Source: Hyphomicrobiales bacterium | GTDB taxonomy: Bacteria > Pseudomonadota > Alphaproteobacteria > Rhizobiales > Devosiaceae | NCBI GenBank assembly: GCA_027487555.1 | Contig: JAIYDI010000004.1 | Span: 186,001-250,000, forward strand | Direction of reading: 5' to 3' | Length of the DNA: 64,000 nt | In this document: in pieces, positions 55,879-62,080 of the stretch | How the letters are laid out: each line of letters opens with the position of its first letter | How positions within the stretch are numbered: the stretch's first letter is position 1 | Notes under the pieces: model-generated | Database searches by the model: none | What the model saw: the letters and a program-made list of their open reading frames with translations, nothing else | What the model was told of the DNA's origin: nothing | Program-made: the position numbers and the translations under genes

Positions 55879-56985
55879 TCAGTAGCCGAGCCCGCCGTCG
55901 CGACCTGTTTGCCCCCGATGGCGGAGGAAATGATCGGCGAGCACCAGCGCCATCATCGCCTCGCCGATCGGCACGGCGCGGATGCCGACGCAGGGGTCAT
56001 GCCGGCCCTTGGTGACAACTTCGGTGTTTTGGTTGGCGGTGGTGACGGTTTCGCGCGGCGTGATGATGGACGAGGTGGGCTTGACCGCAAAGCGCAGGAC
56101 GATCGGGTCGCCATTCGAGATACCGCCAAGTATGCCGCCGGCGTGGTTCGACTTGAAGGCGGGACCGCTGTTGCCGGCGCGCATTTCATCGGCATTTTCG
56201 GTGCCGGTGAGCGCTGCGGAGCCCATGCCCTCGCCGATTTCGACGCCCTTGACGGCATTGATCGACATCATGGCGGAGGCGAGGTCGGCGCTCAGCTTGC
56301 CATAAATGGGGGCGCCCCAGCCGGGCGGCACCCCTTCGGCGACGACCTCGATGACGGCGCCGACGGAATTGCCATCCTTGCGGATGCCGTCGAGATAGGT
56401 CTCCCATTGCTTCGCGGCGACCGGATCGGCGCAGAAGAACGGATTGTTGGCCACCTCATCCCAGTCAAAGCGGGCGTAGTCGATCTTGTGCGGGCCGATC
56501 TGCACCAGGGACGCCCGTATGGTGACACCGGGGATGACAAGGCGGGCGACCGCGCCGGCGGCGACTCGGGCGGCGGTCTCGCGCGCCGAGGCGCGACCCG
56601 AGCCCTTGTAGTCGCGGATGCCGTATTTCTGGTGGTAGGTGAAATCGGCGTGGCCCGGCCGATACTTGTCCTTGATGTCGGAATAGTCCTTGGAGCGCTG
56701 GTCGGTGTTCTGGATCTCGAGTGAAATCGGCGTGCCGGTGGTCTTCAAGAGCCCGTCACGCTCATCCTCGAACGTGCCGGACAGGATGCGGACGATGTCG
56801 TCCTCGCGGCGCTGCGTGGTGAAGCGCGACTGGCCGGGCTTGCGCCTGTCGAGATCGCGCTGGATGATTTCGGCCGAGATCGGGATGCCGGGCGGGCAAC
56901 CATCGACCACGACGCCAAGCGCCGGTCCGTGGCTTTCGCCCCAGGTGGTGAAACGGAACAGATGGCCGAAGGTGTTGAAGCTCAT
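55879..56985 (-). CDS. aroC: Chorismate synthase
   Basis: This 368-residue FMN-dependent enzyme performs the last shikimate-pathway step, EPSP to chorismate. Hallmarks are [20 protein letters not shown] at the N-terminus, [32 protein letters not shown] (the chorismate synthase signature) and the C-terminal [26 protein letters not shown]. Length and start are typical. It is a single gene diverging from a small secreted protein gene across 119 bp. Confidence 0.97.
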
Positions 56986-57104
56986 GGAACTGCCCGGAAT
57001 GTCTGGGGCCGGTCATAGGGCGAGCGGCGGGAGGGGTCAATGCCGGGCCGGACGACCCACGCGGAGCGATAGCCATTTGCCGCGGGCTCGACTATGATTT
57101 CGGG

Positions 57105-57482
57105 ATGCTCAGCTATGCTCGCAGTTTGTCGTTTGTCATCGCGCTGGCCCTCGCGGCAGCGCCGGTTCTTGCCCAGGATATCGTCGGCGACGTACCGGCC
57201 GATGCGCAGAAGGACCTCTGGTGCGGCACGGCCTTCGGGCTGATGCTGAAGGAAGCGCCCGCGGAAAAAGGCGGCGACCAGACCGGGCTCAAGGACGCGT
57301 TCAAGGCCGGCAGCGCGGGGCTGATCGAGCGGGCGCTGCCGATCTATCTCGAAAGCGGCTACAGCAACGAGACGCTCGAGGCGTTCCGGCTCAAGCTCGA
57401 GGGCGAGGTGAGCCGGACGATAAATGGCGGCGAGACGGGGCCCTACACATTCCAGGATTGCTCGGCGCTGATCGGGCAATGA
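57105..57482 (+). CDS. Small secreted protein of unknown function, paralogue 1
   Basis: This 125-residue protein has a Sec signal peptide (LSYARSLSFVIALALAAAPVLAQ, cleavage near 23) and a helical mature part. DVPADAQKDLWCGTAFGLML and the C-terminal FQDCSALIGQ each hold one cysteine, a likely disulfide pair. The protein encoded at 58140-58496 has the same start (DVPAEADRLLWCGSAMYWL) and a similar end (ECPALAEQ), so the two are paralogues flanking pncA. I do not recognise a named family. Confidence 0.7.
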   Translation: MLSYARSLSFVIALALAAAPVLAQDIVGDVPADAQKDLWCGTAFGLMLKEAPAEKGGDQTGLKDAFKAGSAGLIERALPIYLESGYSNETLEAFRLKLEGEVSRTINGGETGPYTFQDCSALIGQ

Positions 57483-57507
57483 GTTCTTGCGACCAAGGAA
57501 ATTGACG

Positions 57508-58143
57508 ATGACGATTGCGCTCCGATCCGATGACCTGCTGCTGGTGGTGGATGTGCAATATGATTTCCTGCCCGGCGGCAGCCTCGCGGTGACCGACGGT
57601 GACCAGGTCATCGGGCCGATCAACGCGCTAGGCCGAAAGTTCGCCAATGTGGTGCTGACGCAGGACTGGCACCCGAAGGGGCATATCTCGTTTGCTTCGA
57701 GCCACGCCGGCAAGGCGCCCTTCGAGACGGTGCAACTGAGCTATGGCACGCAGGTGCTCTGGCCCGACCATTGCGTGTGGGGAACCAAAGGCGCCGAACT
57801 GAGCGCCGCGCTCGACCTGCCGCAGGCGCAATTGACCATCCGCAAGGGCTACCACCCAAAGGTGGATTCCTATTCAGGCCTGCAGGAAGCGGATCGCCAG
57901 ACTAAGACCGGGCTTGCAGGATATCTGAAGGAGCGCGGCATCGGGCGGGTATTCGTGACCGGGCTTGCCACGGATTTCTGCGTGAACTGGACGGCGCAGG
58001 ATGCGGCGCGGGCCGGGTTCGAAACCTATGTGGTGACGGATGCGTGCCGGGGCATCGCCTCGGGCACGGCGCTCGAGGCGGCCTATGCTGAGATGGAAGC
58101 GGCAGGGGTGGCCCGCATCACCAGCAGCGAGATTGCGGGATGA
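57508..58143 (+). CDS. pncA: Nicotinamidase (bifunctional nicotinamidase/pyrazinamidase)
   Basis: This 211-residue amidase converts nicotinamide to nicotinate in NAD salvage. The catalytic triad of the isochorismatase-like family is visible: Asp in VVDVQYDFLPGGSL, Lys in TIRKGYHP and Cys in GLATDFCVNWTA. The metal-site histidines are in QDWHPKGHISFA. The ATG at 57508 follows AAGGA. The stop overlaps the next start (ATGA), so it is co-translated with the second secreted-protein gene. Confidence 0.93.
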   Translation: MTIALRSDDLLLVVDVQYDFLPGGSLAVTDGDQVIGPINALGRKFANVVLTQDWHPKGHISFASSHAGKAPFETVQLSYGTQVLWPDHCVWGTKGAELSAALDLPQAQLTIRKGYHPKVDSYSGLQEADRQTKTGLAGYLKERGIGRVFVTGLATDFCVNWTAQDAARAGFETYVVTDACRGIASGTALEAAYAEMEAAGVARITSSEIAG

Positions 58144-58496
58144 GGGCGCTGCGCGTCCTTGCCGGTGGGCTGGCGCTGCTGATGGCTTCGGCGGCGTTGG
58201 CGGCTGACGTGCCGGCCGAGGCCGACCGCCTGCTGTGGTGCGGCAGCGCCATGTATTGGCTGTCGATCAGCGCGTCGGACGCAGGAAACGACGCGGAGGC
58301 CGACCTGTACCAGGGTTGGGCCGATACGCTGACCGGGCGTGGCGCGCAGCACCTGATATCGGCAGGCTTTGCCGCCGATGCGATCGACGCGGTGGTGTCA
58401 GGTTATGACGAGAGGGTGGTGGTAGACCTCAAGGGGTCGACACCACCCCATTACGCGGCGGAATGCCCGGCGCTGGCGGAACAGCCGGCGGGGTAG
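58140..58496 (+). CDS. Small secreted protein of unknown function, paralogue 2
   Basis: This 118-residue protein has a signal peptide (MRALRVLAGGLALLMASAALAA, cleavage near 22), then DVPAEADRLLWCGSAMYWLS, a helical centre and a C-terminal AAECPALAEQ. The cysteine positions match those of the protein at 57105-57482. It is translationally coupled to pncA by a 4-bp overlap. No known domain is recognisable. The pairing with a cytosolic salvage enzyme is puzzling and may only reflect duplication. Confidence 0.7.
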   Translation: MRALRVLAGGLALLMASAALAADVPAEADRLLWCGSAMYWLSISASDAGNDAEADLYQGWADTLTGRGAQHLISAGFAADAIDAVVSGYDERVVVDLKGSTPPHYAAECPALAEQPAG

Positions 58497-58820: not shown

Positions 58821-59405
58821 TCAGGCGCTTTTGTCGACCGTTTCGGCTTCACCAGCATGGGTGGGGCCGCCCTTGGCGACGCCGACCATGGCTGGACGCA
58901 GCACGCGATCGCCGATGGCGAAGCCGGCCTGTACAACCTGCACGACAGTGCCCTCGGGCTTGGTCGGATCGGGCACCTCGAACATGGCCTGGTGCTTGTG
59001 CGGATCGAATTTCTGGCCTTCGGCGTCGATCGCCTTGACACCGTGCTTGCCGAGCAGCCGCTGCATTTCGCGCTCGGTCATTTCGATGCCGTCGATCAGC
59101 GACTTGATGGTGACATCGGTAGAGGCGCGGGCCTCGGCAGGCAGCACCATGAGGGCGCGGCTGAGCGAATCGGTGGCGGTCAGCATGTCGCGGGCGAAGC
59201 TGGCGATGGCGTAGGACCGGGTATCGTTGATTTCGCGCTCGGTGCGCTTCCGCAGATTTTCCATTTCGGCGACCGTTCGCAGCAGCTTGTCGCGTAGATC
59301 GGCGTTTTCGGACTTCAGCGTCTCGACCGGATCCGGCGCGGAAGCCTGAGCTGTCGCATCGGCCTCGGGCGCGTTATCCTGTGGCTTCAAGTTCTCGTCG
59401 TGCAT
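58821..59405 (-). CDS. grpE: GrpE, nucleotide exchange factor for DnaK
   Basis: This 194-residue protein has an acidic N-tail ([13 protein letters not shown]), a long coiled coil ([38 protein letters not shown]) and the GrpE beta-domain ([48 protein letters not shown]). It releases ADP from DnaK and acts as a thermosensor. The start at 59405 removes 25 spurious residues. It follows hrcA by 97 bp, an order common in alphaproteobacteria. Confidence 0.95.
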
Positions 59406-59502
59406 TCTGACCCTGGGAAGGTTTGAGCGGCCGATCACGGCCTTGTCATTCGTGCCCGGATATCGGGCAATGGGCGGCAAGTTTCAAGCCTTGAGGTGGC
59501 TG

Positions 59503-60600
59503 TCAGCTGGTCTTGCGGCTCAGGACCGCGGAAACGACATGTGCGGTATAGTCGACCACCGGCACGATACGGGCATAGTTGAGCCGCGTCGGACCGATGA
59601 CACCGAGCACGCCGATCACCTTCTGGTTGGCATCCTTGTAAGGCGAGAGGATGACCGAGGAGCCCGAAAGCGAGAAGAGCTTGTTCTCGGACCCGATGAA
59701 GATCTTGACGCCCTGCGCCTGCTCCGCGTCGCCGACGAGATCGATAAGCCCCTCGTGGCTTTCGAGTTCGTCGAAGAGCTGGCGGATGCGACCCAACTCC
59801 TCGGACGCCATGGTGTCGTTGATAAGGTTGGCGCGGCCACGGACGATGACGGTGGGCTGCGTCGTGCTACCGGTGCCTGAGAGCGTCGCGAGCCCGGCTT
59901 CGACCAGCTTGCCGGTCAGCTCATCGAGTTCGGCGACGACTTCGGCGCGCTTTGATTGCAGCGCCTTGCGGGTTTCGCTCAGGGTCTGGCCGACTGCGAG
60001 ATGCGCCAGATAGTTGGACGCACGGGTGAGCGCATCGGCGGCGAGGCCGGGCGGCAGCGGAAAGACGCGGTTTTCGACCGAGCCATCCTCGCCTACCAGC
60101 ACCACCATGGCCCGCTCGGCATCGAGACGGATGAACTCGATATGCTTCAATATCAGATCGGATTTCTGCGCGATGACGACGCCCGCGCCATGGGACAGGC
60201 CCGAAAGCAGCTGGCTCGCCTGGGTGAGCAGATCCTCGACCTTGCCCTCGGCGGCGCGCGCCTCCATCTGCTGCTCGATGGCGCCACGCTCCTCGGCATC
60301 CACGGCGCCGACTTCGAGCATGGCATCGACAAAGAACCGGAGGCCCTGCTGGGTGGGGAGGCGCCCGGCGGATGTGTGGGGCGCCGCGATGAGCCCCAGA
60401 TCCTCAAGATCAGCCATGACATTGCGCACGGAAGCCGGCGACAGGCCGACGGCAAGCAGCCGCGACAGATCGCGCGAACCCACCGGTGTTCCGGTCTCAA
60501 GGTAGCGTTCGACGAGCCGCCGGAATATATCCTGGCTGCGGGCGTTCAGCACCGCGAGCACGTCTTCGGTGACTTTCGTTGTCGCTGCCATATTCACCAT
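59503..60600 (-). CDS. hrcA: HrcA, heat-inducible transcription repressor
   Basis: This 365-residue repressor of groESL/dnaK operons has an N-terminal winged HTH (LVERYLETGTPVGSRDLSRLLAVGLSPASVRNVMADLEDLGLI), a central GAF-like domain and the C-terminal SPYKDANQKVIGVLGVIGPTRLNYARIVPVVDYTA typical of HrcA. It binds CIRCE operators, but none is visible next to hrcA or grpE here. Two ATGs (60600, 60591) are possible. It diverges from rph across ~100 bp. Confidence 0.95.
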   Translation of the reverse strand: MVNMAATTKVTEDVLAVLNARSQDIFRRLVERYLETGTPVGSRDLSRLLAVGLSPASVRNVMADLEDLGLIAAPHTSAGRLPTQQGLRFFVDAMLEVGAVDAEERGAIEQQMEARAAEGKVEDLLTQASQLLSGLSHGAGVVIAQKSDLILKHIEFIRLDAERAMVVLVGEDGSVENRVFPLPPGLAADALTRASNYLAHLAVGQTLSETRKALQSKRAEVVAELDELTGKLVEAGLATLSGTGSTTQPTVIVRGRANLINDTMASEELGRIRQLFDELESHEGLIDLVGDAEQAQGVKIFIGSENKLFSLSGSSVILSPYKDANQKVIGVLGVIGPTRLNYARIVPVVDYTAHVVSAVLSRKTS

Positions 60601-60701: not shown

Positions 60702-61418
60702 ATGCGGCCTTCCGGACGCCAAGCTGATGAGATGCGCGCCGTTTCGCTCGAGCGCGGCGTGGCGCCCAAGGCCGAGGGCAGCTGCCTCGTGACCTTCGGG
60801 GGCACCAAGGTCTATGTGACGGCGACGGTGGAAACCACGCTCCCGTCGTGGCGGCGGAATTCCGGCCTCGGCTGGGTGACGGCCGAGTATGGCATGCTGC
60901 CGCGCGCCACCGACCAGCGCACCCGCCGCGAGGCTGCCGCCGGCAAGCAATCTGGCCGGACGCAGGAAATCCAGCGCCTGATCGGGCGCTCGCTGCGCGC
61001 GGTGGTCGACATGCAGGCCTTGGGTGAAAACCAGATCACGCTCGATTGCGACGTGCTCGAAGCCGACGGCGGCACGCGCACCGCCTCGATCACCGGCGCG
61101 TATGTGGCGCTTGTGGATGCGGTCAGGTGGCTCGAGGCCCGCGGGTTGACCAAGGGCCCGCATGTGCTGCGCGATTCGCTGGCGGCGGTATCGTGCGGGA
61201 TCTATCGCGGCGTGCCGGTGCTCGACCTCGATTACCTTGAGGATTCAGAGGCGCATACGGACGCCAATTTCGTGATGACCGGCGAAGGCCGCTTCGTCGA
61301 AATCCAGGGCACAGCCGAGCAGGTGCCGTTCAGCCGTGCCGAACTCGACAGCCTGATGGGGTTGGCGGAAAAGGGCATCAACGCGCTGACGGTCTTGCAG
61401 AAGGCGGCGCTCGCGTGA
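60702..61418 (+). CDS. rph: Ribonuclease PH
   Basis: This 238-residue phosphorolytic 3'-exoribonuclease trims tRNA precursors. Family marks are [48 protein letters not shown] and [25 protein letters not shown]. The length is typical. GAGGTG lies upstream of the ATG. Its stop overlaps the GTG start of rdgB (GTGA), so the two are coupled. Confidence 0.97.
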
Positions 61419-62080
61419 CCGAGGCCCCCCTCCTGTTGCGGCGTGGCGACCGGCTGGTGCTGGCGACCCACAATGACGGCAAGCTCCGCGAGTTCAAGGC
61501 GCTGCTGCAGCCGTTCGGGCTCGAGATCGTCTCGGCCGGGGAACTTGGCTTGGCCGAGCCCGACGAGACGGGCACGACTTTCGCCGAAAACGCGCGGATC
61601 AAGGCGCATGCGGCGGCGAAGGCTGCGGACTGCATCGCGCTTGCCGACGATTCCGGCCTTGTGGTCGAGGCGATCGGGGGACGCCCCGGCGTCTATACCG
61701 CCAACTGGGCGCAATCGGGCAACATGCGCGACTATCGGGTGGGCATGCGACGGGTGGAAGATTCGCTCGAGGCGGCGGGCGCACTGAGCCCCAAGGACCG
61801 GCGCGGCTCATTCAATGCCACACTGTGCCTCGCCCATCCGGATGGCCGCGACGCGCTGTTCGTCGGCGTGGTCGAGGGCGTGATGGTGTGGCCGCCACGC
61901 GGCGACAAGGGCTTCGGCTTTGATCCGATGTTCATGCCTGACGGCTTCGACATCACGTTCGGCGAGATGAGCTCGGACGAAAAGCACTCCTGGGCGCCGG
62001 GCAAGGTGGGCCTCAGCCACCGGGCGCGTGCCTTCGGGCTGTTTGTCGACAGCGCCCTTGGAGGCGATGTTGAGCACTGA
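61415..62080 (+). CDS. rdgB: RdgB/HAM1 family non-canonical purine NTP pyrophosphatase (XTP/dITP)
   Basis: This 221-residue enzyme hydrolyses dITP/XTP to keep hypoxanthine and xanthine out of DNA. The signatures are [68 protein letters not shown] and the C-terminal [11 protein letters not shown]. It starts with GTG overlapping the rph stop. hemW follows after 20 bp, giving an rph-rdgB-hemW unit that is common in alphaproteobacteria. Confidence 0.96.

Follow-up and report, generated by a model that had tools for sequence, protein, structure and literature searches.

The Rap2a/Tai4 periplasmic immunity proteins are helical and contain a single disulfide from helix 1 to helix 4 (PMC3852654), and HdeA and Spy are small periplasmic chaperones (PMC8144458). 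In a stretch of 64,000 nucleotides from a Devosiaceae genome (hereafter the window), the nicotinamidase gene pncA lies between the genes of two small proteins, P1 and P2, which in size, predicted compartment and predicted helical build recall these systems. The genes of the locus are as follows.

57105..57482, plus strand: P1, small exported protein (predicted), 125 aa, upstream-of-pncA subfamily; signal peptide at about residues 1-23; Cys40 and Cys119
57508..58143, plus strand: pncA, nicotinamidase; ATG start with AAGGA upstream
58140..58496, plus strand: P2, small exported protein (predicted), 118 aa, pncA-grpE subfamily; ATGA overlap with pncA; Cys34 and Cys109
58821..59480, minus strand: grpE, convergent neighbour and member of the conserved locus
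59503..60600, minus strand: hrcA, member of the conserved locus
60702..62080, plus strand: rph (by Pfam) and rdgB, conserved far end of the locus
55879..56985, minus strand: aroC, divergent neighbour of P1 in the window

The three plus-strand genes are thus enclosed by aroC and grpE, both on the minus strand. The end of P1 is separated by 25 nt from the pncA ATG, and the pncA stop is overlapped by the ATG of P2 (ATGA, 4 nt). An earlier note on this DNA had called the middle gene a nicotinamidase, and the NCBIfam equivalog NF008623 agreed with this (183.8 bits, cut-off 174); the closest relatives of the window's pncA were records named Devosia. An alternative TTG start of pncA at position 57487 is less likely, because the orthologues align from the ATG. 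Immediately upstream of P1 (positions 57080-57105) a TATGAT box was found only 6 nt before the ATG, and no clear ribosome-binding site was seen, unlike in the relatives; the P1 transcript is possibly leaderless, or the real start lies elsewhere. The earlier note had also taken P2 to be translationally coupled to pncA. The overlap is indeed present here, but it is specific to this genome, and in the nine relatives checked pncA and P2 were 1-68 nt apart.

P1 and P2 had been described as paralogous small secreted proteins that flank pncA. Both ORFs were found in place, and pairwise BLASTP aligned the proteins over 97 aa with 27% identity and an E-value of 2e-8, so that the resemblance is above chance. 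As judged by inspection, the two N-termini are signal-like and carry Ala-type cleavage sites, in keeping with the signal peptide attributed to both. The strings DVPADAQKDLWCGTA and DVPAEADRLLWCGSA are literally present in P1 and P2, respectively, as are the C-terminal CSALIGQ and CPALAEQ, and LWCG[TS]A is found in both proteins. Among the shared motifs that had been proposed, LWCGxA and both cysteines hold throughout the family, but the final Gln of Cys-x-ALxxQ does not: the P2 orthologues end in CPDLV... and lack it, so that this part of the motif is partly a coincidence. When close orthologues were compared, the dN/dS values of P1 and P2 were 0.05-0.21, and therefore both are real proteins under purifying selection.

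A profile search for the size of the family and its linkage to pncA, which the earlier note had suggested, was run iteratively and gave 41 members and then 74 ORFs with 76 domains, near-copies being set aside. All 76 mature domains carry exactly two cysteines, and these, one in LWCG and the other C-terminal, form the two invariant columns of the alignment, spaced by 67-83 residues. The first Cys is preceded by Trp in 74% and followed by Gly in 78% of the domains, and among the polar residues Cys alone exceeds 66% conservation. The majority of members are acidic, the median pI being about 4, and the dnaK-adjacent pair of the window's own genome is basic. With the enlarged profile, matches at E<=1e-4 were obtained in 53 of 136 Devosiaceae genomes, from 8 of 16 genera, and no strong match was found outside Devosiaceae in 385 genomes of the class, 398 of the order and 299 of the phylum. 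The genome of the window has five copies, namely P1, P2, two next to dnaK on contig C34 and a fifth on contig C2. Members from one chromosomal site form well supported clades (P2 97%, lon 97%, dnaK-adjacent 99%, and P1 96%, the last covering 21 of the 23 P1 rows), and tandem duplication and divergent paralogues occur within the family.

The search did not place P1 and P2 in any known family with a clear role, which had been named as the outcome that would overturn the claim of an uncharacterised family. Neither protein matched Pfam or NCBIfam, except for one sub-threshold 11-bit match of P2, and 39 members searched against the same libraries gave only stray weak matches to one or two of them. 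P1 compared with plasmids and P2 with phages gave no match. In the literature, no paper was found that combined Devosia, nicotinamidase and hypothetical protein, and a search on small periplasmic paralogues of this genus likewise returned nothing relevant. The family is best filed as new, unnamed and of an ordinary kind, undescribed and missing from the curated libraries searched. The weak matches outside it at loci L198-L204, L210 and L213-L216 appear to reflect signal peptides or chance. In another family of the same order, two exported proteins (L196:1426-2166(+) and L197:1474-2166(+)) are weakly similar to the family profile and show a repeated Cys-containing helical pattern.

The AlphaFold models, which were built on an alignment of 21 sequences, are confident for both proteins and show the same four-helix fold. 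In P1 (pLDDT 87, pTM 0.74) the helices are predicted at residues 32-50, 60-83, 88-108 and 116-123, and in P2 (pLDDT 88, pTM 0.77) at 26-47, 51-74, 79-98 and 106-114. In both models one invariant cysteine is located in the first helix and the other in the last. Because the cysteines are invariant and the compartment is oxidising, they most likely form one structural disulfide that would join the first to the last helix. A fold search of the PDB with the two models gave no significant match, nothing being below an E-value of 1.9. When the PDB was searched by sequence, the low E-values came from designed helical proteins, and no stretch passed on its own.

The earlier note had presented the proteins as a recurrent family next to pncA, and this was upheld by the wider sample: a P1-type gene was located immediately upstream of pncA in 23 genomes, which belong to 5 genera, and 14 of the 23 also have a P2-type gene after pncA. 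In the ten loci checked the P1-pncA gap was 10-25 nt and the pncA-P2 gap -4 to +68 nt; since these gaps are short, the three genes probably form one transcript. Where the loci were long enough to show it, the string was nearly always placed between a divergent dnaK and a convergent grpE-hrcA-rph-rdgB, and the order dnaK-[P1-pncA-P2]-grpE-hrcA was found across the genera g1, g3, g7 and g9, and partly in g14, where P1-pncA and a P2-type gene are some 40 kb apart. The relatives have dnaK at the end of the locus where the window has aroC, which argues that the window's arrangement is a rearranged one. Near dnaK there is also a second family of small exported two-Cys proteins (VEFTLINNSSQALHYFY...DQCLYDFRF...DICTLDSYTLTD) with no Pfam match, with the following representatives.

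L149:4775-5107, plus strand: second two-Cys family near dnaK, in the window's own genome
L037:1764-2093, minus strand: the same family
L044:1724-2056, minus strand: the same family
L060:1739-2071, minus strand: the same family

Copies and pncA also occur apart from each other at this locus. Four genomes of genus g16 have a copy between dnaK and grpE with no pncA, and this copy groups with P2 (87% support). The main Devosia clade, which contains the named species, keeps the order dnaK-pncA-grpE with no copy of the family, and in many of its loci pabBC precedes pncA (identified by Pfam in L181). In the hrcA tree these 20 copy-less Devosia loci form one clade (95%), which is consistent with a single loss of the copies in the main Devosia clade. 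Elsewhere, a copy directly follows lon in eight genomes of genus g15, where the copies form a clade of their own, further copies adjoin bacA/uppP, DAHP synthase or ABC genes, and at all four loci checked the two-domain members have Sel1-repeat genes beside them:

L156:3540-4322, minus strand: two-domain member by Sel1-repeat genes
L172:1763-2416, plus strand: two-domain member by Sel1-repeat genes
L157:3480-4172, minus strand: two-domain member by Sel1-repeat genes
L170:3651-4421, minus strand: two-domain member by Sel1-repeat genes

The two-domain members and the Sel1-repeat genes are possibly a separate functional pairing. Since the copies keep differing fixed sites, each subfamily is specific to a site, and pncA is only one of several neighbours.

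A distant two-Cys family was traced from weak matches. Its proteins, with the pattern RCSAAFA...MPxCL, occur in one other alphaproteobacterial family, probably the sphingomonads, of which 35 of 81 genomes have them. With a mature-domain profile lacking signal peptides they ranked first among all ORFs of their loci, and in 111 genomes of that family the signal-free profile gave E<1e-3 in 12, nine of which were these same proteins. The profile-profile probability against the Devosiaceae family was 82%, over helices 1-3 only. All 30 proteins tested have exactly two cysteines. They resemble P1 and P2 in their export signal, the two cysteines and a similar helix-1 motif, and differ in that most of their loci have a glutathione S-transferase gene alongside rather than pncA. 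Their profile likeness points to a probable homology with the Devosiaceae family. Their loci are L230-L260, the last of which apparently holds two domains.

The explanation that we favour, with somewhat more confidence than doubt, is that P1 and P2 are anciently duplicated members of one exported, four-helix, disulfide-pinned binding family whose link to pncA is mostly positional. The signal peptide would direct the proteins to the periplasm, where oxidation of the two invariant cysteines would close the helix bundle. A non-enzymatic binding role is proposed because no polar or catalytic residue is strongly conserved, and by analogy with HdeA/Spy or Tai4 the proteins might act as small periplasmic stabilising or inhibitory proteins, which is a guess. 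The interval from dnaK to grpE-hrcA would be an old site of the family that also holds pncA, hence the adjacency; the link is read as mostly positional because g16 has a copy but no pncA, and the main Devosia clade pncA but no copy. The tie to NAD salvage that the earlier note had implied is weakened by these same loci and by the subfamilies located elsewhere. If P1 and P2 were instead partners of the nicotinamidase, for instance by capturing or sensing nicotinamide in the periplasm and feeding the cytoplasmic PncA, the tight and conserved P1-pncA string of 23 genomes, with P2 in 14, would be accounted for, and this adjacency, which is also the pattern of a functional partnership, counts against the positional reading. 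Nevertheless, we regard such a partnership as unlikely, given that g16 and the main Devosia clade each keep one partner without the other, that most other subfamilies adjoin unrelated genes, that the P2-type gene of g14 is remote from P1-pncA and that the compartments of P1/P2 and PncA differ. A role in NAD salvage is unnecessary to explain the linkage, although a conserved co-transcription, which is probable, would leave room for such a role.

The location of paralogues at heat-shock loci (dnaK, grpE-hrcA and lon) raises the question of an envelope-stress chaperone that takes part in the proteostasis response. The copies between dnaK and grpE and those behind lon represent two distinct sites, and the members are small, exported, helical and mostly acidic, as such a chaperone might be; however, the pattern was recognised post hoc from only two independent sites, and the neighbours of other copies are bacA/uppP, DAHP synthase, Sel1-repeat and ABC genes. 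An RpoH-type pattern that recovered both dnaK promoters used as controls found no promoter facing the family genes except for one weak match (L160), and therefore a stress role is without regulatory support. We consider it doubtful, with perhaps one chance in four. Broader and less probable still is the proposal of an unrecognised alphaproteobacterial superfamily of helical periplasmic proteins, disulfide-pinned and expanded in Devosiaceae, whose members by dnaK, grpE and lon would form an envelope arm of proteostasis. Least probable among these readings is that the proteins serve as immunity proteins or inhibitors, like Rap1a/Tai4, against a periplasm-acting toxin. The divergent paralogues and tandem duplication would suit it, as would the compartment, helical build and helix 1-helix 4 disulfide of Rap2a/Tai4, and Tai4 was the top Foldseek match of P1, at a non-significant level (E 3.4, probability 0.10, TM 0.27-0.31). 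In contrast, none of the 39 members matched the Rap1a or Tai4 Pfam profiles, and where the neighbours of copies were examined, none was recognised as a toxin gene. Relatives of Tai4 were found in none of 150 genomes, but in none of the controls either, so that their absence carries no weight.

Under the positional reading, common inheritance of one locus can account for the conserved P1-pncA-P2 string, which advises caution in assigning the proteins to NAD salvage through guilt by association. The results define an orphan secreted family whose signature is two invariant cysteines plus LWCGxA and whose subfamilies are tied to fixed chromosomal sites; were the proteostasis reading true, which is unproven, it would be a new family of envelope chaperones. 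Membership of P1 and P2 in Rap2a/Tai4 (PF16695) or HdeA/Spy is supported by no sequence or structural test, and no member among the 39 matched the HdeA/Spy Pfam profiles. With HdeA/HdeB and Spy the proteins share a small, exported, helical and non-enzymatic nature, a likeness of size and compartment only. Rap1a (PF18602) is likewise a small exported helical protein with a Cys near the C-terminus, but the members fetched were mostly four-Cys proteins with CxGYxxG that end in PC, and the identity was rejected on the profile comparison (hhalign, 0.2%). Rap2a/Tai4 differs in that no effector gene was seen by the copies of the P1/P2 family, and resembles P1 and P2 in the predicted export, the all-helical build and the putative disulfide between the first and the fourth helix.
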